Part shown: in pieces, positions 1,912-62,457 of the stretch | How the letters are laid out: each line of letters begins with the position of its first letter | How positions within the stretch are numbered: position 1 is the first letter of the stretch | NCBI RefSeq assembly: GCF_003574965.1 | Contig: NZ_CP032317.1 | Location: 3,472,001 to 3,536,000 of the forward strand | Origin: Hymenobacter oligotrophus | GTDB taxonomy: Bacteria > Bacteroidota > Bacteroidia > Cytophagales > Hymenobacteraceae | Reading direction: 5' to 3' | DNA length: 64,000 nucleotides | The notes under the pieces: generated by a model | What the model was told of the DNA's origin: nothing | What the model saw: the letters and a program-made list of their open reading frames with translations, nothing else | Database searches by the model: none | Program-made: the position numbers and the translations under genes

Positions 1912-1931
1912 ACCACAGGCTCAGACCTAGG

Positions 1932-1963
1932 AAAAGCCTGCCCCAGCCGGGGCAGGCTTTTTT
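1932..1963 (+). terminator. Intrinsic terminator after atpG
   Basis: Perfect 13-bp stem AAAAGCCTGCCCC / GGGGCAGGCTTTT with a 4-nt AGCC loop, followed by T residues. It lies 20 bp after the atpG stop and can also serve the convergent HAD gene. Confidence 0.9.
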
Positions 1964-2006
1964 GTTGATAGGCACCTAGGGCGTTGCCAAGGCAACCGGG
2001 CAGGCG

Positions 2007-2735
2007 CTACAGCTTGGCGTAGTTGCGCTCGGCAATGTGCTTGCCGGGCTTGGGCGTGTAAGGGTTTTGCTCCACGAGCGCCAACACGCGCTCGGGGGTA
2101 AGCTGGGTAAAGTCTTTCATGACGTGCATCGGCGCCTGAAACTTGTTGGCGCTTATGCTGGTGCTCAGGCAAATGCAGCGCATTTTGGCTTTGTAAGCGG
2201 CTTGCTCGCCCAGCACGGCATCCTCGAATACCACGCAGCGCTCCGGCGCAACGCCCAGCTGCCGGGCGCACTCGCTGAAGGTATCGGCGTGAGGTTTGCC
2301 GCGCTGCACATCGGCTTTGCCCACCACCACATCGAAGAAGCGGCGCAGGTTGAGGTGGTCGATGATATAGCCGATGGTTTCGGGGGCCGAGCCGGTACCT
2401 AGGGCTAGTTTGAAGCCGGCCGCGCGGGCTGCCTGCAAAAAGCCAGTGAGGCCGGCGGTTTCCTGGCGTTTGTCCCAGTAGAGCACGCGGTACAGAAACT
2501 CGCGGCGGTCGGCGTAGGTCTTGAGTTCCTTTTCGGGTACGGGGTTGCGGTATACGGTTTTGAGGATGTTGGTAGCCGGCATACCGTTCAGGCGCTGCAG
2601 CAACCCGAGGGCATTGGTTTGCAGGCCCAACTCGCGAAATAGCAGTTGAAAAGCTTTGGCTTGGTAGCGGGTGTTATCAATGAGGACGCCGTCCATATCG
2701 AAAATGAGGGCGCATTCGGAAGCACGGAGGGGCAT
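2007..2735 (-). CDS. HAD superfamily hydrolase, beta-phosphoglucomutase-like
   Basis: 242-residue cytoplasmic phosphatase or phosphomutase of the haloacid dehalogenase family. Motif I is FDMDGVLID (nucleophile Asp13, acid/base Asp15). A helical cap follows, then motif II (ALGTGSAPE), the motif III lysine in RGKPHADTF and motif IV VFEDAVLG. This order and the cap type fit subfamily IA (PGMB, phosphonatase, Gph). The substrate cannot be read from sequence. It is a single gene, convergent with atpG and divergent from pafA. Confidence 0.85.
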   Translation of the reverse strand: MPLRASECALIFDMDGVLIDNTRYQAKAFQLLFRELGLQTNALGLLQRLNGMPATNILKTVYRNPVPEKELKTYADRREFLYRVLYWDKRQETAGLTGFLQAARAAGFKLALGTGSAPETIGYIIDHLNLRRFFDVVVGKADVQRGKPHADTFSECARQLGVAPERCVVFEDAVLGEQAAYKAKMRCICLSTSISANKFQAPMHVMKDFTQLTPERVLALVEQNPYTPKPGKHIAERNYAKL

Positions 2736-2839
2736 AAAGCTAACTAGCAGTAGGAGTGAGGTAACCAGAGCGCGGCTGTGTGCGTGTACGAGAAGTTAGC
2801 TACCTAAGCTGCCATAGCCGGGCTTGGGCATTTGCCTGT

Positions 2840-2847
2840 TACCTTTG
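2840..2847 (+). promoter_or_regulatory. Bacteroidota -7 promoter element of pafA
   Basis: TACCTTTG matches the Bacteroidota primary sigma -7 consensus TAnnTTTG, 51 bp before the pafA ATG. I do not see a well-spaced -33 TTTG. Confidence 0.5.
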
Positions 2848-2898
2848 CGGCCGCAAACTTGGCCGGAGCCATGCCAGGCTACCAGCCCGCGTTTTTTT

Positions 2899-4620
2899 AT
2901 GCGAAACACTCTCTTGACTGGACTGCTGGCCGCGGCCACCTTGCTAGGTGGCCAGGCGCCGGCCATGGCGCAGAAGCCCAAAGCCGTACCTAGGCCCAAG
3001 CTGGTGGTCGGCATTGTGGTCGACCAAATGCGTTACGACTACTTGTACCGCTACTGGAACAAGTACGGCAACGACGGCTTCAAACGCCTGCTCGGGGAGG
3101 GTTTCAGCTACGAGAACACCCACTACAACTACGTGCCCACGTACACCGGGCCGGGCCACGCCAGCATTTACACCGGCACCACGCCCTCGGTGCACGGCAT
3201 TGTGGGCAACAACTGGTTTGTGCGCGAGGCCGGCAAAGGCACGTACGTAACCGACGACAAAAGCGTGCAGGCCGTGGGCGGCTCTCCGGCCGCGGGGCAA
3301 CAGTCGCCGCGCAACATGCTCACCACCACCATTACCGACGAGCTGCGCCTGGCCACAAACTTCGGCAGCAAGGTAATTGGCGTGTGCATCAAAGACCGGG
3401 GCTCGGTGCTGCCGGCCGGGCACGCAGCTTCGGCGGCGTACTGGTTCGATAACAGCAACGGCGCCTTCATCACGAGCACCTTTTACACCCAGCAACTGCC
3501 CGAGTGGGTGCAGCAGTTTAACCAGCGCAAACTGGCCGAACAGTACCTGGGCAAGCCTTGGGAAACGCTGCTGCCCATTACCGAATACACCGAAAGCACC
3601 GCCGACGACGTGCCGTGGGAAAACACGTTTCGGGGCGAAGCCAAACCCGTATTCCCGCACAATTTGCCAGCCTTGAGCGGCGTGGCTCCGGCCGATGTGC
3701 GCAAAACCATGCAGGCCGCCGGCGAAAAGGTGCCCAGCACCAACCTCGACCTCATCCGTACAACGCCTTTTGGCAACACGCTCACGCTGGATTTTGCGCT
3801 GGAAGCCTTGCGGGCCGAAAACATGGGTAAAGGCGACCAAACCGATTTCTTGGCGCTGAGTTTTTCCTCGACGGACTACGTGGGCCACCACTTTGGTACC
3901 AATGCTATCGAAACGGAGGATACCTACCTGCGCCTCGACCGCGACATTGCCCGCCTGCTGGCGTACCTCGACAAAAACATCGGCAAAGGCCAGTCGTTGG
4001 TGTTTCTGTCGGCCGACCACGGCGCGGCGCACTCCACGGAGTTCTTGCGCAGCCAGCGCCTGCCCGGCAACGGCGTGGGCGTTACGCTGATGCGCGACTC
4101 GTTGCAGCGCGAACTGGCGCGCCGCTTCGGGCCGGGCCAGTGGGTGCTGAGCTACGAAAACCAGCAGGTGTACCTCAACCGGCCACTACTGGCGCAAAAG
4201 AAAATCGACCTGTACCAGATGCAGCAGGAAGTGGCGGGCATCATGACGCAGTTTGCCGGCGTTACGCGCGCCATAACAGCCACCGACCTCGAAAAATCGC
4301 ACTGGGAAAGCGGCATGCTGATGTACCTCGAGAACGGATACTTCCCGAAGCGCAGCGGCGACGTGATGGTGGTGCTGGCCCCGGGCTGGCTGGAGGCCTA
4401 CGGCTACCCCGTGGTAAAGGGCACCACGCACGGCTCGTCGGGCGCATACGATACGCACGTACCTTTGCTGTTCTGGGGGTGGCGCGTGCCGCGCGGCGAA
4501 TCGGCCCACCCGGCGCGCATTACCGATATTGCACCCACCTTGGCGCGCTTCCTGCACATACAGGAGCCCAATGGCTGCACCGGCCAACCCTTGCAGGAGG
4601 TGCTCCGCAAGAAGAAATAA
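2899..4620 (+). CDS. pafA: Alkaline phosphatase PafA-type (type I phosphodiesterase superfamily)
   Basis: 573-residue exported phosphate monoesterase that releases phosphate from organic esters. The ATG at 2899 was chosen because it begins a signal peptide ([18 protein letters not shown]...AMAQ); upstream in-frame starts lack one. The metal ligand Asp42 is in VVDQMRYDY. The nucleophile Thr83 is in [12 protein letters not shown], followed by the Asn of [19 protein letters not shown] carries the Lys/Arg pair typical of PafA. Further ligands are in [15 protein letters not shown] and [12 protein letters not shown]. Length fits the family. It stands alone between a HAD gene and ppa. Confidence 0.9.
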
Positions 4621-4711
4621 GCTCAGCCTTTCGGCTGCTACTCTCGTACAAACTCATCCTTTACCCGGCGGAGGCTGCTTTTGTTGGCCCGTCATACTCT
4701 CATCATTTGCA

Positions 4712-5299
4712 ATGGCTCACTCTCACTCCACTACGCATTTCAACCCCTGGCACGATGTAAACTACGGTTCCAAAGCGCCGCAGACCGTAAACGCCATCAT
4801 CGAAATTCCGAAGGGTTCAAAGGGTAAGTACGAGCTCGACAAAGACAGCGGCCTGCTGAAGCTCGACCGCGTGCTGTTTTCGGCTGTGCACTACCCGGCT
4901 GCTTATGGCTTTATTCCGCAAACCTACTGCGACGACAAAGACCCCCTCGACGTGCTGGTGCTGTGCTCGGTTGACGTGGTGCCGATGTGCCTGATTGAGG
5001 CCAAGGTGATTGGCGTGATGCAGATGATCGACAACAACGAGGAGGACGACAAAATCATTGCCGTAGCTGCCAACGACGTGTCGATGAACCACTACAACGA
5101 TATTTCGGAGCTGCCCCCGCACACCCTGCTCGAAATGCGCCGCTTTTTTGAGGATTACAAAGCCCTCGAAAACAAGCAGGTGGTAGTAGAAAAATTCATG
5201 GGCCGCGAAGAGGCATACAAGATTGTGCAGGACAGCTTGCGCCTGTACGACGAAACCTTCCGCCACAAAAACCACCAAGCCCAGCTTTCTATGCTCTAG
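4712..5299 (+). CDS. ppa: Inorganic pyrophosphatase, family I
   Basis: 195-residue soluble pyrophosphatase, which hydrolyses PPi to phosphate and so drives biosynthetic reactions. The family signature DDKDPLD is at residues 74-80, with metal-binding Asps. [12 protein letters not shown] and [11 protein letters not shown] are the other conserved active-site segments. The ATG at 4712 gives the usual N-terminus; an in-frame extension upstream overlaps pafA and is not conserved-looking. A CCTAGG site starts 3 bp after the stop and a strong hairpin follows. Confidence 0.95.
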
Positions 5300-5331
5300 G
5301 CCCTAGGTGCCGTTGGCTTAGCGGCGCTGTG

Positions 5332-5380
5332 CCAGCAAAAAGCCCCTGTCCCCGTCCGGGGGGCAGGGGCTTTTTGCTGG
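5332..5380. terminator. Bidirectional-type terminator after ppa
   Basis: A perfect 17-bp stem (5332-5348 with 5364-5380, outer part CCAGCAAAAAGCCCCTG) with a further C/G-rich inner pairing. The A-tract in the left arm mirrors the T-tract in the right arm, so it could work in both directions. Confidence 0.85.
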
Positions 5381-5453
5381 CTGTTGGGGTTTAGGTATCA
5401 CATTTTTGGCCGCGGGGGCGTACACGCTTTCAGACGTTCCTTTCCGGCTCTTC

Positions 5454-6137
5454 ATGACGCAACAAACTCCCCGCAGCCCACTTGGGCGCTTTCTGTACCA
5501 AAATGGCCTGTCGCTTACGGTTGGCATGCTCACGCTGATTACGCTGGTGGGCCAAACCCTAACCGGCCACCACGACTACAACGACGAGCTGCAGCAGCTA
5601 AACCGACCCGCGCTGAGCCTGAGCGAGTACGTAACCTCGGGCCACTGGCTGGAGGCCACGTTTGAAAACTGGGAAAGCGAGTTCCTGCAGATGGCTCTGT
5701 ACGTTCTGCTGACCGTGAAGCTGCGCCAGAAAGGCTCGGCCGAATCGAAAAAACTCGACGAAGAAGAGGAAGTGGACCGCGAGCCAAACCCCTACGACGA
5801 CGACGCCCCGTGGCCCGTGAAACAGGGCGGCGCGGTGCTGTGGCTTTACAAACATTCGCTGAGTTTGGCTTTTCTGGTGCTGTTTATGGCGTCGTTCTTC
5901 CTGCACGCCGTGGGCGGCTCCGAGGTTTACAACATCGAGCAGCAAGCCCACGGCCAGCCCACAGTGGATGTGTGGGGTTACTTGGGCACGGCACGCTTCT
6001 GGTTCGAATCGTTTCAGAACTGGCAGAGCGAGTTTCTGAGCATTGTTTCGATCGTGGTGCTGACGATCTGGCTGCGGCAGTACGGCTCGCCTGAGTCGAA
6101 ACCGGTAGACGCGCCGCACAGCGAAACGGGCAAGTAG
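5454..6137 (+). CDS. DUF6766 family membrane protein with internal duplication
   Basis: 227-residue integral membrane protein that I place in DUF6766; function unknown. It is two copies of one unit. LYQNGLSLTVGMLTL (from residue 14) matches LYKHSLSLAFLVLF (from 131). FENWESEFLQ...LRQKGSAESK (about 70-99) matches FQNWQSEFLS...LRQYGSPESK (about 187-216). Each unit has two predicted membrane helices, and an acidic linker (DEEEEVDREPNPYDDD) joins them. The start at 5454 (MTQQTPRS) is preferred over an upstream in-frame ATG at 5406. Confidence 0.7.
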   Translation: MTQQTPRSPLGRFLYQNGLSLTVGMLTLITLVGQTLTGHHDYNDELQQLNRPALSLSEYVTSGHWLEATFENWESEFLQMALYVLLTVKLRQKGSAESKKLDEEEEVDREPNPYDDDAPWPVKQGGAVLWLYKHSLSLAFLVLFMASFFLHAVGGSEVYNIEQQAHGQPTVDVWGYLGTARFWFESFQNWQSEFLSIVSIVVLTIWLRQYGSPESKPVDAPHSETGK

Positions 6138-6212
6138 CGCCGGGCCAGCAGCGGCTAACAGCCCCAGCGAACGTATTTTGCGCCTTTAACCGCTCAGTTG
6201 CTGCTCGCCGCA

Positions 6213-7136
6213 ATGCCTCCTCAACACGCCGCCGCGCCGTCGTCATCTGCCCTGGGGTACCGGCGGCCATGGTTTTGGGCTGTGACCGATGCGGTGCTGT
6301 ACGGCAACGGGCTGGTAGCGGCCGCAGCCGCGATTTTGGTAATGGCCTCGGGTCGGTACTGGCAGCAAGCGCTGCCGCTTTCGGTGCCGGCGCTGGTGTT
6401 GGCTGCCACGATGTTTGTGTACAATCTCAACGGAGCCCGGCGCCACAACCTACGCCTGCCGCCCCACGTGCCGGCCCGCCGCCGCTGGATTGTGCAGCAC
6501 CGCCCGTTGCTGCTGTCGGTGGTGTTGGCCTCGGCGGCTGTGGTAGTGGCCTTGTATCTTACAAGCCCCTTTATCGAGCGGCTAACGTGGTTTCTGGGGC
6601 ACTTGGCATTGCTGTCGTTGGCGTACTCGTGGCCGGTGCTGCCGGGGCGCGACGGCGGCCGCCGCCGGGGCCTGCGCGACATTCCGGGGCTGAAAACGCT
6701 GCTGATCGGCTACGTTTGGAGCGCCGTTACGGTATGGCTGCCGGCGCTTTGCCTGGGCCTCAGTATCGATACTGCGGCCGTTTGGCTGCTGTTTGGGCGC
6801 CGCTTTTTCTTTATTCTGGCTATTGCGTTGGTGTTCGACCTGCGCGACGTGAGCCGCGACCGGCGCGCGGGCACCGCCACGCTGCCTGTGCTGCTGGGCT
6901 ACGAGCGCGGCCGCTACGTGGCCCTAGGTTGCGTAGTAGCCTCAGCAGCGCTGGTGCTGCCGGGCTTGGCACTTGCGGGGCAAATGGTGCTGGCTGTGCC
7001 TACGCTGCTTACGGCTTTGGTGGTGTGGTTTGCTAATGAAGCCCGCTCCGACTACTACTACGCGCTGCTGGCCGATGGCCTACTGCTGGTGCAGGCCGGG
7101 GCGTTGTTTGTAGCTGCTGCGGGCACTGCCACCTAG
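6213..7136 (+). CDS. UbiA-like prenyltransferase family membrane protein
   Basis: 307-residue polytopic protein resembling UbiA prenyltransferases, which attach isoprenoid chains to aromatic or lipid acceptors. The second Asp motif is clear: FDLRDVSRDRRAGTATLPV. The first motif, normally NDxxDxxxD, appears only as YNLNGARRHN and lacks the aspartates. It may therefore be a divergent or catalytically altered member. The ATG at 6213 was chosen over a TTG 15 bp upstream. Its TAG stop (7134-7136) lies inside a CCTAGG palindrome. Confidence 0.7.
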   Translation: MPPQHAAAPSSSALGYRRPWFWAVTDAVLYGNGLVAAAAAILVMASGRYWQQALPLSVPALVLAATMFVYNLNGARRHNLRLPPHVPARRRWIVQHRPLLLSVVLASAAVVVALYLTSPFIERLTWFLGHLALLSLAYSWPVLPGRDGGRRRGLRDIPGLKTLLIGYVWSAVTVWLPALCLGLSIDTAAVWLLFGRRFFFILAIALVFDLRDVSRDRRAGTATLPVLLGYERGRYVALGCVVASAALVLPGLALAGQMVLAVPTLLTALVVWFANEARSDYYYALLADGLLLVQAGALFVAAAGTAT

Positions 7137-7145
7137 GGCTGCGCT

Positions 7146-8660: not shown

Positions 8661-8784
8661 GCCGGTAGCTTACGCAGATTTTGGCGGATGGCCCAACCCT
8701 AGGTGCAGCGGCCGCGCTAAACCGCAGGCAGGGTTAAGCCGTTGCTAGCTATTCTGGTTTTCCTCTGAACCTAACCCCTCTGCC

Positions 8785-9243: not shown

Positions 9244-9280
9244 CGGCCAGGGGCACACATCAACTAGGCGTCCGCCGTGC

Positions 9281-9727: not shown

Positions 9728-9772
9728 GAAGCAAGGGCCTGGTGGGGCCTATTTTGAGCGGAAAGTAAGCGG

Positions 9773-9780
9773 TATCTTTG
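9773..9780 (+). promoter_or_regulatory. -7 promoter element upstream of sdaA
   Basis: TATCTTTG matches TAnnTTTG. A TTTG lies at 9753-9756, but the 16-nt spacer is shorter than usual. It precedes the serine dehydratase ATG by 144 bp. Confidence 0.35.
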
Positions 9781-40169: not shown

Positions 40170-42671
40170 ATGCTCACCTTCTCACATCTGCCGGCTCTTA
40201 CGGGTGGCACGCTGCTGCAGGCACCTGCCGATGCTGCTGCTCCGGTGCTTCATTTGCTGCTCGATAGCCGCCGTATGGCCCAGGCTGCCGGCACCTTGTT
40301 TGTGGCACTGCGCGGCCCCCACCACGACGGGCACCAGTACGTGCCCGAGCTGTACCAGCGCGGCGTGCGCCTGTTCCTCATCGACAAGGCCGAGATAGTG
40401 CCCGGAGCGCTGGCCAACTACCCCGAAGCGGGCTTTGTGCTGGTGCCCGATAGCTTAGTTGCCTTGCAGCGCATTGCCGCCGAACACCGGGCCAGGTTTG
40501 ATATACCGGTGGTGGGCATTACGGGCTCGAACGGCAAAACCATCGTAAAGGAGTGGCTGGCGCAACTGCTCAGCCCCGACGAGCTCATTTGCCGCTCGCC
40601 GCGCAGCTACAACTCCCAAGTAGGTGTGCCACTGAGCGTGTGGGAGCTGCGACCGGCGCATACGCTGGGTATCTTCGAAGCGGGTATTTCGGAGCGCGGC
40701 GAAATGGCGCGTTTAGCGCGGGTCGTTCAGCCCACCCTAGGTATTTTCACTAACCTTGGCTCGGCACACGACGCCGGGTTTAACTCGCACGCCGAGAAAG
40801 CCGCCGAGAAAATGCAGCTTTTTGCCGGCGTTGATACCTTGTTTTACTGCCGCGACCACACCGAGGTGCACGCAGCAGCCGAACAGCTGCCGGCGCGCGT
40901 GCAACGCTTTAGCTGGTCGCGCCGCAGTGCAACCGATGCCCAAGTGCAGGTGCAGCTGGGGCCTGGTGCCGACCCCCAGCAGCCACTGGCGCAGGTGCAA
41001 TACCTAGGGCAAACGCACACGTTTACGCTGCCTTTTGCCGATGAGCCTTCGGTTGAAAACGCGCTCCACTGCGTAGCCTTGCTGCTCTGGCGCGGGTTGC
41101 CCGCCGCCGAGCTGCAGCGCCGCCTGCTGCGCCTGCAACCCGTGGCCATGCGCCTCGAAATGAAGCAGGCCATTCACGACTGCTACATTCTCGACGACAC
41201 CTACAACAACGACCTGGCCGGCCTCGATTTAGCTTTGGATGCGCTGCGCCGCCAACCGCGCCGTGGCCGCCGCACGCTTATCCTGTCCGATTTGCTCGAA
41301 TCGGGCTTGCCCGCCGCGGAGCTGTATCAGCAGGTGGCCCAACTTGCCCGCCAACACAACGTGCAGCGTTTGCTGGCTGTGGGCTCTGAAATCAGCCAGC
41401 ACCAAGGCTTGCTGCAGGCGGCGGTAGCCGATGCGCAATTTTTCGCCGACACCGATGCGCTGCTCAACTGGTTTCACCCCGACCACTTCCGCCACGAAAC
41501 TATCCTGGTGAAGGGCGCCCGGCGTTTTGGCTTCGAGCAGGTAGTAGCGGCTTTTCAGCGCAAAATTCACGGCACCGTACTCGAGGTAAACCTCGATGCA
41601 TTGGTGCACAACCTTAACTACTACCGCGCCCGGCTGCAGCCCAACACCCGCCTGATGGTGATGGTGAAGGCTTTTGCCTACGGCAGTGGCTCCTACGAAG
41701 TAGCCAACCTGCTCGAGTTTCACCGCGTCGACTACCTAGCCGTGGCCTACACCGACGAAGGCGTGCAGCTGCGCGAGCACGGCATTTCGTTGCCAATCAT
41801 GGTGATGAACCCTTCGCCCGATTCCTTCGCCCTGCTAAGGCAATACCACCTCGAGCCCGAAATCTATTCGTTTGCCCGCCTGCGCGAGTACCTGATGGCC
41901 GCCCAAAGCGGCCCGCTGCCGCCCATCCACCTCAAGCTCGACACTGGCATGCGGCGCTTAGGCTTCGACGAAGCCGACCTCGACGAATTGTTGCCCTTGC
42001 TGCAGCAGCATGCCGGTACGCTGCGCGTAGCCAGCGCCCTCACGCACCTAGCCGGCGCCGACGAGGAGCAGCACAACAGCTTCTCGCACCGGCAGCTAGC
42101 GGCTTTCCAGCGCATGGCTGCTCGCCTCGAAGCAGCCCTAGGTCACGCCGTGATCAAGCACGCCCTGAACTCCCCGGGCATCATGCGCTTTCCGGAAGCT
42201 CAGCTCGATATGGTGCGCCTGGGCATCGGCTTGTACGGCGTCGAAGCTGCTGGCCTCGATCCGGCCGCACTCCGTGCGGTGAGCACCTTGCGCACCACCG
42301 TTTCGCAGCTGAAAACCTTGCCGGCTGGCGAAACCGTGGGCTACGGCCGCCGCGGCGAAGCCGCCGACCACAACCGCCGCATTGCCACGCTGGCCATTGG
42401 CTACGCCGATGGGTACGACCGGCGTTTTTCGCGCGGTGTGGGGGCGGTAATCATCCGGGGCCAGCGCGCACCCATCATCGGCAACGTGTGCATGGATATG
42501 TGCATGGTCGACGTGACGGAGGTGCCCGACGTGCAAGAAGGCGACACGGCCGTAGTGTTCGGCGACGAGTTGCCCCTAAACGAGCTAGCTGCTCGCATCG
42601 GCACCATCCCGTACGAGCTGCTCACCAACGTAAGCGAGCGGGTTAAGCGGGTGTTTATATCGGAACAGTAG
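40170..42671 (+). CDS. murF-alr: Bifunctional MurF ligase / alanine racemase
   Basis: 833-residue fusion characteristic of Bacteroidota. The N-terminal ~450 residues are UDP-MurNAc-tripeptide:D-Ala-D-Ala ligase: ATP loop GITGSNGKTIVKEWL (about 113-127) and YNSQVGVPLSVWELR. The C-terminal ~370 residues are alanine racemase, with PLP lysine Lys500 in MVMVKAFAYGSGS and the catalytic-Tyr region ATLAIGYADGYDRRF. MNPSP and RLGIGLYG are further racemase marks. The fusion makes both D-Ala and its use in one protein. Not a frameshift. Confidence 0.95.
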   Translation: MLTFSHLPALTGGTLLQAPADAAAPVLHLLLDSRRMAQAAGTLFVALRGPHHDGHQYVPELYQRGVRLFLIDKAEIVPGALANYPEAGFVLVPDSLVALQRIAAEHRARFDIPVVGITGSNGKTIVKEWLAQLLSPDELICRSPRSYNSQVGVPLSVWELRPAHTLGIFEAGISERGEMARLARVVQPTLGIFTNLGSAHDAGFNSHAEKAAEKMQLFAGVDTLFYCRDHTEVHAAAEQLPARVQRFSWSRRSATDAQVQVQLGPGADPQQPLAQVQYLGQTHTFTLPFADEPSVENALHCVALLLWRGLPAAELQRRLLRLQPVAMRLEMKQAIHDCYILDDTYNNDLAGLDLALDALRRQPRRGRRTLILSDLLESGLPAAELYQQVAQLARQHNVQRLLAVGSEISQHQGLLQAAVADAQFFADTDALLNWFHPDHFRHETILVKGARRFGFEQVVAAFQRKIHGTVLEVNLDALVHNLNYYRARLQPNTRLMVMVKAFAYGSGSYEVANLLEFHRVDYLAVAYTDEGVQLREHGISLPIMVMNPSPDSFALLRQYHLEPEIYSFARLREYLMAAQSGPLPPIHLKLDTGMRRLGFDEADLDELLPLLQQHAGTLRVASALTHLAGADEEQHNSFSHRQLAAFQRMAARLEAALGHAVIKHALNSPGIMRFPEAQLDMVRLGIGLYGVEAAGLDPAALRAVSTLRTTVSQLKTLPAGETVGYGRRGEAADHNRRIATLAIGYADGYDRRFSRGVGAVIIRGQRAPIIGNVCMDMCMVDVTEVPDVQEGDTAVVFGDELPLNELAARIGTIPYELLTNVSERVKRVFISEQ

Positions 42672-48710: not shown

Positions 48711-50624
48711 CTAAACCTGGGTGCGGGGCAACGTGAACTGTACGGTAGTTCCTTGGCCCGGGGTGCTCTTTATGCTCAGCTCGCCGCCTTGCCGCTTGGC
48801 AAAGGCTAAGCACAACGGCAGCCCCAAGCCCGTGCCCGAGCGCGCGCGGCCAATGGTGGGGCGCGGCGCGGTGCAGCGGCCGGGCTCTAGCAGGGCCTGC
48901 ACTTGCTCTTCGGGCATGCCAAAGCCGCTGTCCGAAACGCATATGGCCACCATGCGGTCGTCGGGGGTGAGTACGGCGCCCAGGCGAATGGTGCCGCCCA
49001 CGGGAGTGCACTTCAGGGCGTTGCTCACGAGGTTGCGCAAAATGGTGCGCGTCATGTTGGCATCGGCCCATGCCGTTAGGCCCTCGGCGGCGGCCACGCT
49101 CAGGCTAATTTGGCGCGCTTGGGCGGCGGGGCCGTGCAAGGCTTCCACATCGCGCAGCAGCTCACTTAGTTGCAGCTGCTGGGGCTGAAAGGCAAGCTCG
49201 CCGGTTTGCGTTACGGCCCAATTCAGCAAGTTATCGAGCAAGCTATTGAGGTGCTGAGCCGATTGACGCACCTGCTCGGGCAAGCGGCGCAGGCCTTGTT
49301 CGTCGCCGGTGCGCAGGTAGAAATCGATCAGCTCCGTCACGCCTACAAACGAGGTAACGGGGCCGCGCAAATCGTGGGCTACGATGGAGTAGAGGCGGTC
49401 TTTGCTTGAGGCGAGTTGTTGTGTTTGGGTGTTGGCCTGCTCAAGTGCCGCGTGGTTGGCCGCCAAAGCCCGTTTGCTGCGCCGCAATTGCCACGTAAGC
49501 CCGCCTACGCCCACCAAGCCCAGCACCAACGCGCCCACGGCAATGCGCAGCTCGCGGTTGCGCAGCTGCTGCAACTCGGCGCGCTGGGTAAGCAGGCGAA
49601 TCTGGTTTTCCTTTTCGGCCGACTCGTAGCGCGACTGCAGCGCCGACAGCGTACCGAGGCGGGCCCGGCTGTTGAGGGTATCGTTGAGGGCCTCGTAGCG
49701 CTGCCGCCACTCGTAAGCTTGGCGGTACTGTTGGCGCGCCGCCTGAATGTTGGCCATCAGGTTGTAGCCATCGAGCACGCGCTCCAGAAACCCAATGCGG
49801 CGGCCCTGGCTCAGGGCTTTGCGCGTTAGTTCTTCGGCTTCGTCGAGCTTGTTGGTGAGCAGCAATACCGAGGCCAGCAGCTCCTGTTGGCTGGTTACAA
49901 ACCGCGGGTTGTTGGCCGCCTGGCTGAGCTCCAGTGCTTTGCGTAACAGCCCCTCGGCAATGCTGTAGTTGCCGATTTGCAAATAGTGGGTGCCAAGGTG
50001 CCCTAGGTACATGGCCTCGCCGGCACGGTCGCCGGTGCGGCGCGCCAGTTGCGTGGCCTGGCGGGTGTACTGCATGCCTTTGGGGTGTTGGCCGCGGTAG
50101 AAGAAAAGCCCACCTAGGTTGCCATAAAGCATCAGTTGGGTGCGCACGCTCACGCCGGGCGTGCGAATGCGCGCGAGGGCCTGGCGGTAATTGGCCCAGG
50201 CATTTATGGTGTCGCCGCGCTCGTGATGAATGCTGCCCATGGCAGTGTAGCCGCGCACTATGCCGTCGGAGTTTTGCAGCTCTTGGGCCAGCAACAGGGC
50301 CTCTTGCTGCAGCTTAAGCGCATGGGGGCCGTCGGAGAGGTTTGCGTAGCAACTGCCTAGGTGCAGCAACGCCCGCATTAGCCCGGGTTTATCGTCGAGG
50401 GTGCGGGCCAGCCGTACGGCATCTTCGCCGTAGCGCAGGGCCCGGTTGGGCGAATGGTCGTGCAGGGCGTAGCACAGTTGGCTAAGCACCCGCACCCGGC
50501 TGGTATCGACGGGTAGGGCAGGCAAACGCTCCCGCAACCGGGCCACGCCGAGCGAATCTTGGGCGTGAGCCGCCAGTGTGGCCCACAACCAAAAGCACAT
50601 AAGCCCAGGCAGAAACCGCCCCAT
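48711..50624 (-). CDS. TPR-containing sensor histidine kinase
   Basis: 637-residue membrane kinase. A signal peptide is followed by about six TPR repeats (about 50-310) outside the cytoplasm, a coiled coil, one membrane helix (VGALVLGLVGVGGLTWQL), and cytoplasmic HisKA and HATPase domains. Phospho-acceptor His is in YSIVAHDLRGPV; N box NLVSNALKCTPVGG; G boxes DSGFGMP and GTGLGLPL. No response regulator gene is adjacent, so the partner is unlinked. Three in-frame CCTAGG sites lie in TPR repeats. Confidence 0.9.
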   Translation of the reverse strand: MGRFLPGLMCFWLWATLAAHAQDSLGVARLRERLPALPVDTSRVRVLSQLCYALHDHSPNRALRYGEDAVRLARTLDDKPGLMRALLHLGSCYANLSDGPHALKLQQEALLLAQELQNSDGIVRGYTAMGSIHHERGDTINAWANYRQALARIRTPGVSVRTQLMLYGNLGGLFFYRGQHPKGMQYTRQATQLARRTGDRAGEAMYLGHLGTHYLQIGNYSIAEGLLRKALELSQAANNPRFVTSQQELLASVLLLTNKLDEAEELTRKALSQGRRIGFLERVLDGYNLMANIQAARQQYRQAYEWRQRYEALNDTLNSRARLGTLSALQSRYESAEKENQIRLLTQRAELQQLRNRELRIAVGALVLGLVGVGGLTWQLRRSKRALAANHAALEQANTQTQQLASSKDRLYSIVAHDLRGPVTSFVGVTELIDFYLRTGDEQGLRRLPEQVRQSAQHLNSLLDNLLNWAVTQTGELAFQPQQLQLSELLRDVEALHGPAAQARQISLSVAAAEGLTAWADANMTRTILRNLVSNALKCTPVGGTIRLGAVLTPDDRMVAICVSDSGFGMPEEQVQALLEPGRCTAPRPTIGRARSGTGLGLPLCLAFAKRQGGELSIKSTPGQGTTVQFTLPRTQV

Positions 50625-55378: not shown

Positions 55379-55474
55379 GGTCTTGGGGTCTTGGGAGCTT
55401 AGGGGCTTGGCTGACGTTGAGTTGACCATAGCCCCGAACGAGCCCCAAGGCCCTAAGCCCCCAAGACCCCAATT
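55378..55474. repeat. Period-8 inverted repeat between yqeY and cvpA
   Basis: GGTCTTGG-type octamers at 55378-55410 pair with CCCCAAGG-type octamers at 55443-55470; a 26-bp stretch matches with about two mismatches. The element spans exactly from the yqeY stop to the cvpA ATG. Confidence 0.85.
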
Positions 55475-55993: not shown

Positions 55994-56015
55994 CACCTAG
56001 GGCGTTTGCCTTCCG

Positions 56016-56657
56016 ATGCGCCTGCTGCTGCTCGATAACTTCGATTCCTTTACCTACAACCTGCTCGATTACTTCTGCCAGCTGGGCACCGAAGTAATGG
56101 TGCGCCGCAACGACGTGCCCTTGTCCGAGCTGCTGGCGCTGCCCTTCGATGCGGTGGTGCTGTCGCCGGGGCCGGGTACACCTCGGCAAGCAGGCAACAT
56201 GATGGCTTTGCTCGAGCAAGTGCACCAGCGCGTGCCGGTACTGGGCGTCTGCCTAGGTCATCAGGCCCTAGGCGAGTTTTTCGGGGCCGAACTGGGGCGG
56301 GCCGCGCGGCCCATGCACGGCAAGGTTTCTGAAATGCAGGTGGCGGCAGGGGAGGAGCTGTTTGCCGGCCTGCCCGCGCGCATGCCCGTTACGCGCTACC
56401 ACTCGTTGGTGCTCCGCAATTTGCCGCCAACGCTGGTGCCCTTGGCCTACACCGCCGACGCCGACCACGAGCTGATGGCCTTGCGCCACCACGCGCTGCC
56501 GCTCTACGGCGTGCAGTTTCACCCAGAGGCGCTGCTAACCACCCACGGGCTGGCCATGCTGCGTAATTGGGTACGGATTGCGTATCATTGCACAGGTGTG
56601 GCCACGCAGTTGGCCCCGCCCAAGGCGCTTATTGAGAACGATGGAATTGCAGATTAA
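56016..56657 (+). CDS. Anthranilate/aminodeoxychorismate synthase component II (glutamine amidotransferase)
   Basis: 213-residue class I glutamine amidotransferase that supplies ammonia for anthranilate or para-aminobenzoate synthesis. LLLLDNFDSFTYNL, LSPGPGTP, nucleophile Cys79 in LGVCLGHQALGEFFG, and YGVQFHPEALLT with the catalytic His. TrpG and PabA cannot be separated; no trp gene is adjacent, so a folate role is possible. Overlaps the next gene by 17 bp. Two CCTAGG sites lie 15 bp apart around the catalytic loop. Confidence 0.88.
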   Translation: MRLLLLDNFDSFTYNLLDYFCQLGTEVMVRRNDVPLSELLALPFDAVVLSPGPGTPRQAGNMMALLEQVHQRVPVLGVCLGHQALGEFFGAELGRAARPMHGKVSEMQVAAGEELFAGLPARMPVTRYHSLVLRNLPPTLVPLAYTADADHELMALRHHALPLYGVQFHPEALLTTHGLAMLRNWVRIAYHCTGVATQLAPPKALIENDGIAD

Positions 56658-57423
56658 GCAGCACAGCGGATTCAAATATGTGGATGAGGGCAGCGGCGAG
56701 GTATTGCTGCTGCTGCACGGCTTGTTCGGGGCTCTCAGCAACTGGCAAGGCGTTATCGACGAGTTTGCCCGCGATTATCGCGTTGTCATACCGATGCTGC
56801 CCGTGTACGATATGCCCCTCACGCGGGCCGGCATTACGGGCTTGGTCGAGTTTGTGGAAGGCTTCGTGAAAACCATGGGCCTGAACGAGCCAGCTACCGT
56901 GCTCGGCAACTCTTTGGGCGGCCACGTGGCGCTGGTGTACACCTTGCGCAACTCCGCGCGGGTGCAGCGCCTGGTGCTTACGGGCAGCAGCGGCCTGTTC
57001 GAAGACTCTATGGGCGGCTCCTTCCCGCGCCGCGGCGATTACGCCTACGTGCAGGAGCGCGTGGCCTACACCTTCTACGACCCCAAGGTGGCTACCAAGG
57101 AGCTGGTCGATGAGGTGTTCGATGTTACGAACTCCAATGCCAAGTGCTTGCGCATCATTACCATTGCGCGTTCGGCACAGCGCCACAACCTCACCAAGGA
57201 CCTAGGCCGCATTCAGGTGCCCGTGTTGCTGATCTGGGGCCTCAACGACACCATTACGCCGCCACTTGTAGCCCACGAGTTTCACCGTTTGCTGCCCAAC
57301 TCCGAACTGCACTTCCTCGATCATTGCGGCCACGCCCCCATGATGGAGCGCCCACAGGCGTTTAACCGCCTGTTGCATCAGTTTTTGCAGCAACAAGTGC
57401 CCCAGCCCACCATCGGCGCGTAG
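56641..57423 (+). CDS. Alpha/beta hydrolase
   Basis: 260-residue esterase or lipase-like enzyme. Oxyanion motif LLHGLFGALSNWQG, nucleophile Ser in LGNSLGGHVALVY, acid in WGLNDTITPP and His in LDHCGHAPMMERP. The start at 56641 gives MELQIKQHSG and overlaps the amidotransferase end by 17 bp; operon likely. Substrate unknown. Confidence 0.85.
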   Translation: MELQIKQHSGFKYVDEGSGEVLLLLHGLFGALSNWQGVIDEFARDYRVVIPMLPVYDMPLTRAGITGLVEFVEGFVKTMGLNEPATVLGNSLGGHVALVYTLRNSARVQRLVLTGSSGLFEDSMGGSFPRRGDYAYVQERVAYTFYDPKVATKELVDEVFDVTNSNAKCLRIITIARSAQRHNLTKDLGRIQVPVLLIWGLNDTITPPLVAHEFHRLLPNSELHFLDHCGHAPMMERPQAFNRLLHQFLQQQVPQPTIGA

Positions 57424-57571
57424 TTTGGCGCTGGCCACGCAGCAAAATCGCCGACCGACTCGTAGTTTGGGCTAGCCTGCTGTTGCGGCCCGGCGCCGCG
57501 CCCGCAACCTAGTGCACCGTTTGTCGCTTATACACCAGCGACTAATTTTCCACCGCTTACCCCGGGTTGTC

Positions 57572-58252
57572 ATGCACTCGATGCTCGCCGAAGACCTGCT
57601 GAACCAAATGATTCCGCCGCTGAAGGTATCCGACTCGGCGGGCAAGGCAGCGCGTTGGCTGGAGGAATTCCACGTCGATCAGCTGCCCGTGGTACAAAAC
57701 CGCCAGTACCGGGGCATGGTTACCGAGGCCGACCTAATCGATGTGGCCACCAACCCCGAGCAGCTGCTTGGCAGCGTGGCCTTTGGTTTTGCTGAGGTGC
57801 ACGTGCAGCGCGACCAGCACTTTTACTCCGTGATGGAAATGGCCATCCGCAATAAGGTGCAGCTGGTGCCCGTGCTCGACGACCAACGCGAGTACCTAGG
57901 CGTGGTAACCGTAGGCGATACGCTGGCCGCGTTCGGGCAAATACCCGGCAACGCCGGCGAAAGCGGCATCCTGGTGATGTCGATGGAAGAGCGGGACTAC
58001 TCCTTGAGCCAAATCAGCCGCTACATCGAGGAAAACAACGCCAAAGTGCTCAGCTCGCACGTAGCCGAAGACGAGTCCGATACGCGCCGCATTCGTCTGA
58101 CGCTTAAGTTGAATACCAGCAACATGGGCCGCATTGTGGCTACGCTCGAGCGGTTCGGGTACGTGATAACGGCGCAGTTCAGCGGAGCCGGCGAAATTAC
58201 CGAGGCCGACCAAGAGCGCCTCGATTCGCTGATGCGCTACCTGAGTTTGTAG
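57572..58252 (+). CDS. CBS domain protein
   Basis: 226-residue cytoplasmic regulator-like protein. Two CBS motifs (AEDLLNQMIPPLKVSDSAGK...GMVTEADLIDV; HFYSVMEMAIRNKVQLVPVLD...GVVTVGDTLAAF) form an adenine-nucleotide-binding Bateman module. The C-terminal part resembles an ACT-like domain (RIRLTLKLNTSNMGRIVATLERFGYVI). The start at 57572 was chosen; 57581 (MLAEDLL) is possible. The stop is 3 bp before the GTG of the next gene, so they are likely co-transcribed. Confidence 0.85.
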   Translation: MHSMLAEDLLNQMIPPLKVSDSAGKAARWLEEFHVDQLPVVQNRQYRGMVTEADLIDVATNPEQLLGSVAFGFAEVHVQRDQHFYSVMEMAIRNKVQLVPVLDDQREYLGVVTVGDTLAAFGQIPGNAGESGILVMSMEERDYSLSQISRYIEENNAKVLSSHVAEDESDTRRIRLTLKLNTSNMGRIVATLERFGYVITAQFSGAGEITEADQERLDSLMRYLSL

Positions 58253-58255
58253 CCA

Positions 58256-59743
58256 GTGCGAACAGCCGTAGTTGCCGCCATCCTTTGGATAGCGTTGTGG
58301 GGTGCGGCCACCGCCGCCAAGGTCGGCAACCTCGCTGTACACAACGCTGCTCATGCGGGGCCTCCGCCCGATTCGGTGCGGCGCGTTGCCCTCGATAGCC
58401 TGCTGGCTGCACAGTGCCCCGGCTACTCGGCCGTGCGGGTTGGCCAGGTATTATTCGTCGGCAACGAGGTAACTAAAGAGCACATCTTGCGCGCCGAACT
58501 CGATTTCCGCGAAGGCGACACCCTGCAAGTAGCCGAGTTGGCCTCCCGCCTCGAGCGAAACCGGGCGCGGCTCTACAACCTGCAACTGTTCAACCAAGTA
58601 GCGGCCCAAGTAACCTGCCGCGACGGCGAGCTGATTGTGTTGTTTGGAGTGCAGGAGCGCTGGTACACGTTTCCGGTGCCCATTTTCTCCTTCGCCGACC
58701 GCAACATCCGCTCCTGGCTCGACCGGCCCGACCGCTGGCAGCGCTTCGATTACGGTTTGCACCTCACGCGCTACAATTTTCGGGGACGCAACGAGCAATT
58801 GCTGGGCAACTTGCAGTTTGGATTCAACCGCAAATACGAGCTGTTTTACCTCACGCCTTCCCTAGGTCGATTCCGGCGCATGGGCCTATCGGTAGGGGCT
58901 TCGCTGCTGCAAAGCCGCGCCCTCGACTATGATACCCGCCAAGATCAGCTGCTGGCGCTGCGCACCGACAACGCCTTTCCGGTACAGCGCTGGTACGTAA
59001 CCGGCGGATTGCGCTGGCGCCGCACCGTGCAGCGCCTCACCACGCTCGATGGCTATTATTACCACGAACGCATTTCCGACTCGGTGCAGCGGCGCAACCC
59101 CAATTATTTCCTAGGTGCCCGCCAGCGCGCATTCGTGGATGTGGTGCTGAGCCGCACCCTCAACCAGCGCAACTCGTTTGCCTATCCGCTTAGTGGGTCT
59201 TTTCTGCAGCTTAGCCTCACGCAGCGGTTCTTCGTGGCATCGGCCAGCCCACCCATCACTACGCTTGCCGGCCGCTATGCCCGATACTTCGACCTAGGCA
59301 AGGGCTTTTACTACAGCGCCAGCGGCGAGGCCCGGCTCCGGATAGCCCAGCGCCTGGCCTACGCCGATAGCCGCGCCCTGGGGTACCGCCAGGCCTTGGT
59401 CCGCGGTTACGATTCGTTCGTTGTGGATGGCCGCCACTACGGCGTGGTGCGGCAAGGCCTCTCGTACCGCATCTTCGACGCCGGCCGGCTGAACTTGCCC
59501 ATGCTCAACGACCCGCGCCTGAACCGCGTGCCCCTAGTGCTCTATTTGAATACATTTGCCGATGCGGGGTACGTGGCCGAGCGCTCCGTGCCCGCCACCA
59601 ACCGCTTGCCCAATCAGTTGCTTGCCAGCTTGGGTGTAGGTTTGCACCTGGTAACCTACTACGATCGGGTGTTCACGCTGGAGTACGCCCGAACGCTCAA
59701 TGGCTTTGGCGGTTTCTTTTTCCGCACCGAATTTCCCATTTAA
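58256..59743 (+). CDS. BamA/TamA-like outer membrane protein with one POTRA domain
   Basis: 495-residue Omp85-like protein. After a signal-like N-terminus (GTG start, MRTAVVAAILWIALWGAATA) comes one POTRA domain (VGQVLFVGNEVTKEHILRAEL...ELIVLFGVQERWYTF). A ~350-residue barrel region follows and ends in Ile (FFFRTEFPI). It is shorter than TamA (three POTRAs) and BamA (five). Function is unknown; it may insert or translocate envelope proteins. It lies 3 bp after the CBS gene and 27 bp before nadK. Confidence 0.75.
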   Translation: MRTAVVAAILWIALWGAATAAKVGNLAVHNAAHAGPPPDSVRRVALDSLLAAQCPGYSAVRVGQVLFVGNEVTKEHILRAELDFREGDTLQVAELASRLERNRARLYNLQLFNQVAAQVTCRDGELIVLFGVQERWYTFPVPIFSFADRNIRSWLDRPDRWQRFDYGLHLTRYNFRGRNEQLLGNLQFGFNRKYELFYLTPSLGRFRRMGLSVGASLLQSRALDYDTRQDQLLALRTDNAFPVQRWYVTGGLRWRRTVQRLTTLDGYYYHERISDSVQRRNPNYFLGARQRAFVDVVLSRTLNQRNSFAYPLSGSFLQLSLTQRFFVASASPPITTLAGRYARYFDLGKGFYYSASGEARLRIAQRLAYADSRALGYRQALVRGYDSFVVDGRHYGVVRQGLSYRIFDAGRLNLPMLNDPRLNRVPLVLYLNTFADAGYVAERSVPATNRLPNQLLASLGVGLHLVTYYDRVFTLEYARTLNGFGGFFFRTEFPI

Positions 59744-59770
59744 GCGCCTGTTCAACCTAGGGCCCCACGT

Positions 59771-60661
59771 ATGCGCATTGCCATTCAGGGAAAACCATTC
59801 GAGGCCGATATGGCGCCGCACCTGCAGCAGTTGTTCGATGAGCTAGCTGCTCGTCAGGCTGTTATTGCGGTAGCCGAAACATTTCGCGAGTACCTACAGC
59901 ACCTACGTTTGCCAGAGGGCATCTCCACCTTCCGGCGGGGCGACTCACTGCGCGGAACCGACTTTGTGCTTAGCATTGGCGGCGATGGTACCCTGCTCGA
60001 TACGGTTACCTACGTCGGCAAGCACGAAATTCCCATCCTAGGTATCAACACCGGGCGGTTGGGGTTTTTGTCGACCGTGCCGCCCGACCGCATTCCGCAG
60101 GCCATTGATGCTCTGTTTCGCGGGCACTTCACGCTCGAGCGCCGTAGCCTCATCCATGCCGATACCGACCCGGATGTGTTCGGCGGCCTCGATTTTGGCC
60201 TCAACGAATTCTCCATCCTCAAGCGCGATTCATCGTCGATGATCGTGGTACACACGTACATCGACGGCGAATACCTAAACTCTTATTGGGCCGACGGCCT
60301 GGTGGTTTCAACGCCCACAGGCTCCACGGGCTATTCGTTGAGCTGCGGCGGGCCGGTAATGTTGCCGCAAACCAACAATTTCATCATCGCTCCCGTATGC
60401 CCCCACAACCTGAACGTCCGACCACTCATCGTACCCGATCATAGCATCATCTCGTTCGAAATCGAGGGCCGCAGCAACAACTTCCTGTTGTCGCTCGATT
60501 CGCGTTCCGTAACAGTCGATGCCGGGGTGCAAATAGCGGTCCGACGTGAAAAATTCGACGCAACATTAGTAAAGCTAAACCACGTGAATTTCCTTAGCAC
60601 CCTGCGCAGCAAGCTCAATTGGGGCCTCGATCGACGCAACCCTGCTGGACTATCCATGTAA
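59771..60661 (+). CDS. nadK: NAD kinase
   Basis: 296-residue ATP-dependent NAD kinase that makes NADP. The catalytic GGDGT is at 70-74 (Asp72). GLNEFSILKRDSSSM holds the Asn-Glu that binds NAD. STPTGSTGYSLSCGGPV and PLIVPDHSIISFEI are further conserved loops. Length is normal. Sits in an envelope-gene series that ends in uppS and bamA. Confidence 0.95.
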   Translation: MRIAIQGKPFEADMAPHLQQLFDELAARQAVIAVAETFREYLQHLRLPEGISTFRRGDSLRGTDFVLSIGGDGTLLDTVTYVGKHEIPILGINTGRLGFLSTVPPDRIPQAIDALFRGHFTLERRSLIHADTDPDVFGGLDFGLNEFSILKRDSSSMIVVHTYIDGEYLNSYWADGLVVSTPTGSTGYSLSCGGPVMLPQTNNFIIAPVCPHNLNVRPLIVPDHSIISFEIEGRSNNFLLSLDSRSVTVDAGVQIAVRREKFDATLVKLNHVNFLSTLRSKLNWGLDRRNPAGLSM

Positions 60662-60683
60662 AGCATCGGATTTTTTCTATGAA

Positions 60684-60717
60684 TTGTTTTTAAAACCCAG
60701 AGTGCCTACTACTTTTG
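60684..60717 (+). promoter_or_regulatory. Promoter of DUF6089 gene pair
   Basis: TTG at 60684-60686 and TACTTTTG at 60710-60717 (TAnnTTTG), spacing 23 nt. It is in an AT-rich stretch after nadK, 74 bp before the ATG at 60792. Confidence 0.55.
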
Positions 60718-60791
60718 TTCTTGACTGCAACCGTATCCGCATGGGTACTTGGCTTTCCTAATTCGATATTTCTAACCCCGCTCCACATAGT

Positions 60792-61682
60792 ATGAAGAAA
60801 CTCTTGACTCTCACCCTGACGCTGGTACTGGCGCTGGTGCTGGTAGCCAACCAGGCGAGTGCCCAGCAGTTCAGCAAGCGGAAGCAGTACAACTCGGTAG
60901 GCGTGAGCCTGAACGCGATGAACTATTTCGGTGACATCGTGCCCAAGCCCAGCATCACTAGCTTGCGTTTTGCTGCCACTCGCCCCAACATCGGCCTGAG
61001 CTTTACCCACCGTTTCGCCCCGCGCATTTCGGCCCGTGGTAGCTTGTCGTACGGCCGCATCACCGGCGACGACGCCAAAGCCGCTGATGACACCGATCCG
61101 GACGCTAAGTACCGCTACAACCGTAACATGAACTTCCGCAACGACATTGTGGAATTGTCAGCTGTAGGTATTTTCGATCTGATAGAAAACCGCAACAACT
61201 ACCTCAAGCGTCCGGACTTTGTGCCTTACGTTTTCGGCGGTGTGTCGGTGTTTCACCATAATCCAAAAGGCCAGGATGCAAGCGGCAACTTTGTAGCACT
61301 GCAACCCCTCGGCACCGAAGGACAACGAGTGAATGGCGACGGCACGTACGGCCTGTGGCAGATCTCGATTCCGTTTGGTGGTGGTGTGCGTTACAAACTA
61401 AACAAAAGCTTTGACCTGGGCTTCGAAATCGGCTGGCGCAAAACCTTCACCGATTACCTCGACGACGTAAGCGGTAACTTCGCTCCCGACGCCCAACTGC
61501 TCACCGACCAAGCCAAATACTTTGGCCGTGGCATCACTCGAAGCACTCAAGGCGAATTTGCTCGTTTCAATGAGCCCGGCCAGATGCGTGGCAAGAGCAA
61601 TGAAGACGACTGGTACATCGTTACTGGTTTTTCGCTAAACTACATTCTCGCTCCTCGCGTTAAGAGCCCCAAGTTCCGTTAA
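60792..61682 (+). CDS. DUF6089 family outer membrane protein (copy 1)
   Basis: 296-residue exported protein with signal peptide (MKKLLTLTLTLVLALVLVANQASAQ) and a small beta-barrel pattern of alternating residues: YNSVGVSLNAMNYFGDIVP, ISARGSLSYGRITGDD, VPYVFGGVSVFHHNP, FDLGFEIGWRKTFTDYLDDV. I place it in DUF6089; function unknown. Homologous to the next gene and 38 bp upstream of it. No CCTAGG site. Confidence 0.8.
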   Translation: MKKLLTLTLTLVLALVLVANQASAQQFSKRKQYNSVGVSLNAMNYFGDIVPKPSITSLRFAATRPNIGLSFTHRFAPRISARGSLSYGRITGDDAKAADDTDPDAKYRYNRNMNFRNDIVELSAVGIFDLIENRNNYLKRPDFVPYVFGGVSVFHHNPKGQDASGNFVALQPLGTEGQRVNGDGTYGLWQISIPFGGGVRYKLNKSFDLGFEIGWRKTFTDYLDDVSGNFAPDAQLLTDQAKYFGRGITRSTQGEFARFNEPGQMRGKSNEDDWYIVTGFSLNYILAPRVKSPKFR

Positions 61683-61719
61683 TCAGTCGTTGGCTGCCTG
61701 CCAACGCAGCCTTCTCCTG

Positions 61720-62457
61720 ATGACAAAGACATTCCTCTTCAAAACGCTCCTTGTTTGCTCCGTGCAAGCAGGGGGCGTTTTTTTTGCCCAAAGCGCAACC
61801 GCTCAAAACACCAGCGAAATCGGGTTAGGTCTAGGTGCCCTGAACTACAAAGGCGAATTAGCACCTGAATACCGGCTGCTCAACAATCGGCCAGCTGTAT
61901 CGGCCTTCTACCGAAAGGATATCTCGGCGCCGGTTACCTTGCGCGGCACCGTAACGTACGGATTGATCCGGGGTAACGACGCCGACTTGACGGGAGAAGG
62001 CGGAAACCCGTTGCCACTGCCAGCCTACCGGCAAGCCAACCTGAAGGGTTCGTTGCTCGATGTATCAGCCACTCTCGAATACAACTTCTTCGACTTTCAT
62101 AACCGACGCGACAAGGTCCGTTTCACACCTTATGTGTACACGGGCATTGCTGGTTTTCTAGGCTTTACCCGTTTATCAGGCCCGTTGCCCGGTTTTGATG
62201 AAAAAAGCAACACCCTAGGGCTGGCTATTCCGGCGGGGGTAGGGCTCAAACTGGCGCTGTCGCGGCGTTGGAACCTAGGGCTCGAAACCGGCGCGCGGCG
62301 GGCACTTACCGATTTGCTCGACCACGTTAAAGACCAAAGCCCGGCCGTAGCCAACCGCTTCGATAAGGATTGGTATTATTACTCAGGGGTAAGCGTGTCG
62401 TTTACTTTCTACAAAATCAACTGCCCCGATTCGTACGGCAACAAGCCGCGCCTGTAG
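61720..62457 (+). CDS. DUF6089-like outer membrane protein (copy 2)
   Basis: 245-residue exported barrel protein. Signal peptide MTKTFLFKTLLVCSVQAGG, then EIGLGLGALNYKGELAPEY, TLRGTVTYGLIRGNDAD, FTPYVYTGIAGFLGF and NLGLETGARRALTDLLDHV, parallel to the segments of the upstream gene. Shorter and more diverged copy. The start at 61720 was chosen for the signal peptide. Followed by uppS after 72 bp. Confidence 0.75.
   Translation: MTKTFLFKTLLVCSVQAGGVFFAQSATAQNTSEIGLGLGALNYKGELAPEYRLLNNRPAVSAFYRKDISAPVTLRGTVTYGLIRGNDADLTGEGGNPLPLPAYRQANLKGSLLDVSATLEYNFFDFHNRRDKVRFTPYVYTGIAGFLGFTRLSGPLPGFDEKSNTLGLAIPAGVGLKLALSRRWNLGLETGARRALTDLLDHVKDQSPAVANRFDKDWYYYSGVSVSFTFYKINCPDSYGNKPRL

Follow-up and report, generated by a model that had tools for sequence, protein, structure and literature searches.

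A stretch of 64,000 nucleotides from Hymenobacter oligotrophus (here called the window, meaning the whole of the DNA analysed) raises the question of why a single hexamer, CCTAGG, should recur so often along a bacterial chromosome. CCTAGG is the core of a genome-wide watermark whose flanks are lineage-specific (here CCCTAGGT). The window holds 98 copies, where 100 dinucleotide shuffles give a mean of 11.89 (standard deviation 3.61, maximum 23); both the number and the end points, 1926 and 62279, agree with the original prediction, and its assumption of about 60% G+C was sound (55–63% per 4 kb). Among the palindromic hexamers of the window, CCTAGG tops the enrichment with an observed/expected ratio of 8.0, the runner-up reaching 3.5. 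The largest of the 99 gaps is 2313 bp, and the site-free stretches are unremarkable. Within open reading frames, which are mechanical calls and not annotated genes, there are 74 sites against 7.2 ± 2.4 (maximum 14) in 200 synonymous-codon shuffles. Sixty-four of these read Leu-Gly, the predicted majority, and 10 read Pro-Arg, rather than the ‘five or so’ foreseen. Another 22 sites start in the 7283 bases of noncoding DNA. The excess extends to the entire 4.19-Mb genome that holds the window (G000), in which 5678 copies (1.36 per kb, 1355 per Mb) lie far above, and not near, expectation; the reversed word GGATCC is present 67 times.

Codon bias as the source of CCTAGG is rejected by two tests. 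The first considers leucine codons that follow a C and precede GG, and in G000 drew on 404 kb. In this context, CTA makes up 365 of 585 codons in G000 (62%), and 384 of 582 and 316 of 596 in G007 and G005, the two other members of its clade. Since CTA accounts for only 684 of 12472 leucine codons outside this context in G000 (5.5%), and for 6 of 158 and 6 of 210 inside it in the low-count relatives G003 and G006 (3–4%), codon bias is not the explanation. Expressed as log odds, CTA in this context stands at 3.35, 3.23 and 3.28 in G000, G007 and G005, and at −0.23 and −0.29 in G003 and G006. Equal enrichment of all Leu-Gly codon pairs is likewise not found; only CTA after C is enriched. The second test is a synonymous-codon shuffle (60 rounds each), which yields 44.3 ± 6.7 coding sites in G000, about a tenth of the 413 observed, and 10.2 and 9.0 in G003 and G006, each of which has 6. 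Noncoding DNA carries 2.8–3.3 copies per kb in the three rich genomes and 0.04–0.06 in the two low ones.

The original prediction had described CCTAGG as a palindrome with GCCCTAGGTG as its preferred context. The context preference stands, being found at 22 of the 98 window sites; the palindromic label does not hold for G000, where the enriched unit is the oriented word CCCTAGGT, with GCCCTAGGTG as its best form. A T after the core or an A before it occurs on exactly one side at 518 of 589 sites in G000 (both sides at 17, neither at 54), at 492 of 573 in G007 and at 490 of 533 in G005; within the window the figure is 90 of 98, with both flanks at one site and neither at seven. In noncoding DNA of the three genomes, CCCTAGGT/ACCTAGGG reaches 3.9–4.9 times the expectation from independent flanks, whereas the symmetrical ACCTAGGT and CCCTAGGG reach 0.5–0.9 and 0.08–0.18 times. 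Read in the T orientation, the consensus is G-C/G-CCTAGG-T-G-C, and the commonest 10-mer, GCCCTAGGTG, accounts for 100 of 373 oriented noncoding sites in the three genomes pooled. The two orientations are balanced between strands, without skew (281 versus 258 in 20 stretches spread round the G000 chromosome). Positions in the window are collected in Table 1.

Point mutations create the watermark, which is then retained in excess, about equally strongly in three species. The core is kept at 70% of aligned sites between G000 and G007 and at 68% between G000 and G005, where the average hexamer is kept at 49% and 52%; its conservation ranks 16th of 1232 and 102nd of 1230 hexamers, respectively. 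The low-count G003 has CCTAGG at 2 of 146 aligned sites, and many sites differ from its sequence at two or more positions. The ancestral state was taken as that common to two of G000, G007 and G005, so that some gains could be double losses. On this basis, CTG has changed to CTA in 14 of 67 cases inside the motif context versus 172 of 7006 outside it, and the outer C has been lost to T in 1 of 547 cases in the motif versus 92 of 3749 before CTN codons other than CTA. These two imbalances, an excess of site-creating changes and a shortage of changes that destroy the outer bases, amount to over-retention. Single-step losses in the three lineages are centre-heavy (CCCAGG in 88 of 148), a pattern with which codon position is confounded; for highly iterated palindromes, Elhai's genome-wide counts of one-off deviations have them concentrated at the outer positions. 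One-mismatch noncoding forms that keep CTAG, such as ACTAGG and CCTAGC, are more frequent than in low relatives, as decay products would be, which does not separate selection from drive.

Sites are also spread more evenly than chance would have it. In 5-kb bins the variance/mean ratio is 0.50, 0.68 and 0.60 in G000, G007 and G005, and CCTAGG ranks first in evenness of 290, 276 and 286 hexamers of similar abundance; the corresponding ranks are 5, 10 and 2 in 10-kb bins and 2, 35 and 15 in 20-kb bins. Across 37 stretches of 20 kb, each with 18 to 35 sites, the variance/mean ratio is 0.43 (P 0.001), and the 20 spread stretches alone give the same ratio (P 0.015). Pairs closer than 100 bp fall short of within-gene permutation in all three genomes (68 observed for 76.4 expected, 47 for 55.8 and 57 for 64.3); the share of 500 permutations with as few pairs is 0, 0.008 and 0.016. 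The pair correlation is 0.65–0.77 at 100–200 bp, and below 100 bp it is 0.87–0.93 in G000 and G005 and about 0.6 in G007. CTA is taken in 61 of 154 opportunities at most 60 bp from another site, and in about 67% of those at 250–1000 bp. These tests are not independent of one another, the three genomes being of common descent. Only 2 copies were found in the 51 kb read of the small G000 contigs C2–C4 (85 kb, probably plasmids), and none within the type I restriction-modification genes of G000. Both would be acquired DNA, in which case the word is written slowly.

Marker matches place the window's genome beside its sister species Solirubrum puertoriconensis (Cytophagales, Bacteroidota), and G007 is 86% identical to G000 across those stretches of the compared region that align. 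Among 204 genomes of the family, G000 included, 13 have 1209–8806 copies of CCTAGG (the high genomes), 8 have 507–888 and 183 have fewer than 500, and the load differs some 40-fold between close relatives. In a phylum-wide sample of 395 genomes, none but G000 exceeds 734; of 38 nearer genomes, one from another family of the order reaches 807. All 13 high genomes sit on a marker-protein tree, in three well-supported clades ({G000, G005, G007}, {G053, G059, G144} and {G093, G109, G125}) and a weaker fourth ({G064, G066, G150, G158}), the clades being read from the drawn tree because its group statistics disregard the 41 ungrouped rows. Its 54 rows comprise 30 of the 33 genomes searched for gene families (all but G157, G116 and G132) and 24 of 53 named loci; no low genome among them falls inside a high clade, and low relatives lie between the clades. 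Since the tree rests on one gene and has open forks in its backbone, both four gains and an old state followed by many losses are possible.

The other high genomes retain the core and alter the flanks; the flank counts draw on 16–60 kb per genome, and on 120 kb for the four genomes of the weaker clade together. The asymmetric pair of the window's clade is the commonest in G109 and G125 (33 of 107 and 19 of 34), the asymmetry being modest in G109. The commonest octamer is the palindromic CCCTAGGG in G093 (24 of 61) and the palindromic ACCTAGGT in G053 and G144 (34 of 63 and 14 of 38), while the weaker clade favours GCCTAGGT or GCCTAGGC (17 and 13 of 50). A screen of palindromic hexamers in 83 short Hymenobacter loci (5–9 kb, which is too short per genome to exclude other words) gave the highest ratios for CCTAGG; other iterated palindromes reach 3–6 times expectation with few copies, for example TGTACA with 6 in L036. 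As a separate observation, the tetramer CTAG is abundant in stretches of 52–56% G+C (114 in 20 kb of L242 from G144, 94 in 16 kb of L243 from G059 and 54 in 20 kb of L250 from G139, a genome where CCTAGG is rare), and occurs 12 and 23 times per 20 kb in two members of 62% G+C (L248 and L249). The usual avoidance of CTAG seems relaxed in these 52–56% G+C Hymenobacter stretches.

From these genome comparisons we tentatively conclude, and may well be wrong, that fixation bias keeps the watermark on these chromosomes, perhaps as a self signal, uptake-like and with dialects. A sequence-specific DNA-binding protein would favour DNA that bears the word, with gains that would shrink where neighbouring sites are no more than one or two hundred bases apart. 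The likeliest step would be that the cell recognises its own DNA during uptake or recombination, by machinery that would dispense with a PilB/PilT-type ATPase. We rank this self-DNA signal a little above an intracellular binding site, and put methylation-driven drift below both, because the word is oriented, shows no strand bias, is evenly spread, has dialects around a fixed core and is scarce in DNA that is probably mobile. Some Bacteroidota are naturally competent, as two Riemerella species illustrate. R. anatipestifer needs genes annotated as ComEC, DprA and ComF (PMC8459023), and R. columbina favours its own DNA in transformation, the candidate words listed there being A/T-rich k-mers only (PMC7965970). 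A more specific idea, less likely than not, is that a third family of DNA uptake (self-recognition) sequences has evolved independently in Bacteroidota, its core being CCTAGG, with dialects in the flanks and a receptor and machine other than the type IV pilus. If it were true, a change of dialect would set up a sexual barrier between Hymenobacter lineages. Any uptake signal here would mean that sequence-specific DNA uptake also occurs in another phylum and can work without pilus ATPases.

Several points weigh against a self-DNA signal. Profile searches of 33 Hymenobacteraceae genomes (the 13 high ones and 20 others) covered PF00145, PF01555, PF02086, PF07669, PF02384, PF03852 and PF00437; the last, the family of PilB/PilT/GspE/TadA-type ATPases, which the known uptake-sequence systems use in their pilus-type machinery, has no match in any of them, high or low. 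A control search with PF00437 gave matches in 14 of 14 known genomes, 13 of them over the cut-off. The absence counts against a classical uptake route. No receptor was found. The core is palindromic, unlike known uptake sequences, which are described in PMC1939737 as non-palindromic and as less even than chromosome-compacting sequences would be. The strong evenness fits intracellular selection equally well, and the tree needs four origins of one core, or many losses. At some distances the shortage of close pairs lacks significance (for example, below 60 bp and below 300 bp in G000 and G005). In the mutational record, the outer-C control before CTA not followed by GG is too small (C to T in 0 of 81), and loss of CTA to CTG is merely halved (34 of 547 versus 36 of 297); G005 is mainly responsible for the latter losses (23 of 184), and its control codons also shift towards G.

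The closest competitor, which is possible but somewhat less so than a self-DNA signal, is that CCTAGG is bound by a protein of the nucleoid, of repair or of replication whose flank preference varies by lineage, and that weak selection favours regular coverage, at about one site per 0.7 kb. The first rank of CCTAGG for evenness among hexamers of similar abundance (5-kb bins), the shortage of close pairs, the similar enrichment in coding and noncoding DNA and the rarity of the word in the small contigs read would all be expected of such a site. Against it, close relatives and the small contigs do without the word at no obvious cost, no candidate protein was found, and one core in four separate clades would be unusual for a housekeeping binding site.

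Methylation-linked creation of highly iterated palindromes (HIPs) in the sense of Elhai 2015, in which an orphan methylase and mismatch repair create and keep sites without selection, is improbable. The density and the palindromic core are HIP-like, the commonest octamers of G053/G144 and G093 are palindromic, and cyanobacterial alternate HIPs accompany a methylase according to PMC4390886. Yet none of the five DNA-methylase families searched occurs throughout the 13 high genomes: PF02086 occurs in 0 of them, PF00145 in 4, PF01555 in 5, and PF07669 and PF02384 in 11 each. G000 has no match to PF00145, PF01555, PF02086 or the Vsr family PF03852, and G007 has none to PF00145, PF02086, PF02384 or PF07669. 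Vsr is absent from both and present in 3 of the 13 high and 8 of the 20 other genomes. Not one of the six families tracks the word across the 33 genomes, and the methylase or very-short-patch repair enzyme for CCTAGG that the original prediction proposed to look for was not found in G000, in which a type I system and an MmeI-like enzyme account for the DNA methylases detected. A methylase of some other family, or different enzymes that share one specificity, may still act on the word. In addition, the window's clade has a plainly asymmetric word, and a site-autonomous process would not be expected to give avoidance of close pairs. The MmeI-like protein is a methylase-restriction fusion of 1186 aa (G000 C1:2000001-2010000; L231:3398-6958, minus strand). 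Its gene is a long resident, since it is 87% identical in G005 and its 10-kb stretch contains 15 core sites. As a cause of the word it is not convincing; similar-length open reading frames of low genomes also give weak PF07669 matches.

Pure mutation bias, such as C-to-T hypermutation of CCCAGG to CCTAGG, is very unlikely. This transition does make up 35 of 39 single-step gains in the three lineages, at 3.3 times the control rate; a bias in gains alone, however, does not yield the suppressed loss of the outer C, and the spacing effects and the many sites at least two changes away from G003 also speak against it. A Chi-like recombination sequence read by an AddAB/RecBCD-type enzyme is the least probable account of all: the word is an oriented 8–10-mer in G000, but it lacks strand skew, is rare in relatives and is several times denser than Chi in Escherichia coli (1008 in 4.64 Mb; PMC1939737, Table 6).

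The roughly 40-fold contrast, the separate clades, the dialects and the lack of a common tested methylase family help to split two ideas, namely that methylation makes a word and that the word itself is favoured. The purpose of iterated genome words is an open question, and the significance of HIP1 is called little known in PMC4390886. For CCTAGG, comparing the full gene complements of 13 high and 183 low genomes makes the cause searchable.

Table 1. Positions in the window of the CCTAGG sites, of the full oriented word and of the marker gene.
Feature	Position	Strand	Remarks
CCTAGG core sites	1926..62279	.	start of first to end of last; 98 sites, mean gap 646 bp
Full oriented word GCCCTAGGTG	5300..5309	+	example
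Further GCCCTAGGTG, starts	7298, 10213, 10902, 17285, 28820, 29392, 30211, 35146, 54753	+	
Oriented word on minus strand (CACCTAGGGC on plus)	1973..1982	-	example
Further minus-strand oriented words, starts	7130, 15218, 15479, 16318, 33117, 33357, 34603, 39286, 39754, 53438, 55994	-	
Sole site with both flanks, fully palindromic octamer ACCTAGGT	50113..50118	.	
Gene for YfhO-like membrane protein, 870 aa	30228..32840	+	marker for relatives and tree; not part of the signal

Two further observations concern other features of this DNA. GGATCC is strongly avoided in G000, with 0 copies in the window, and is nearly absent from several genomes of the family (0–1 in G046, G049, G103, G134 and G142, for example); its scarcity looks like the outcome of past restriction pressure. 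On the plus strand of the window, positions 40170–42671 encode a protein of 833 aa in which Mur ligase domains are fused to an alanine racemase.

A literature search, with most subscription papers outside its reach, found no paper joining Hymenobacter and CCTAGG. Of the systems known from elsewhere, Chi is alike in being an oriented, overrepresented 8-mer; it is skewed towards one replication strand, whereas the CCTAGG word has no strand skew, is much denser than E. coli Chi and is lineage-restricted. An AvrII-type restriction site is the same hexamer; restriction sites tend to be avoided, but this one is enriched here. In E. coli, GCCTAGGC is observed 0 times against 151 expected (PMC1939737, Table 6).

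HIP1 and the alternate HIPs, as PMC4390886 describes them, share with CCTAGG a density of about 1000–2000 sites per Mb, a GC-rich palindromic core, shifts of motif between related lineages and, in some species, extended flanks. The HIP1 parallel drawn at the outset thus stands for density and for the saturation of synonymous Leu-Gly contexts, and fails for G000 on the palindrome; no methylase for the word was found there among the families searched. CCTAGG differs in its asymmetric flanks in the window's clade and in having no tested methylase family common to the high genomes; it is not among Elhai's alternate HIPs, nor does the word occur in the text of that paper. The analogy is closer in G053/G144 and G093, because the commonest octamer is palindromic there.

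The DNA uptake sequences (DUS) of Neisseriaceae and the uptake signal sequences (USS) of Pasteurellaceae, as described in the papers cited, share these features with it: about one site per kb with a relatively even spread (for USS, PMC7811141), an oriented word (as in G000), no strand or orientation bias (PMC1939737), a higher noncoding density and a conserved core with lineage-specific flank dialects, CTG being what DUS dialects retain (PMC3630211). CCTAGG is set apart from them by its palindromic core, which in G053/G144 and G093 extends to the commonest octamer, and by the lack of the PilB/PilT/GspE ATPase family in the genomes searched. It differs from DUS and USS, too, in that its hosts are Bacteroidota, in several separate clades of one family.

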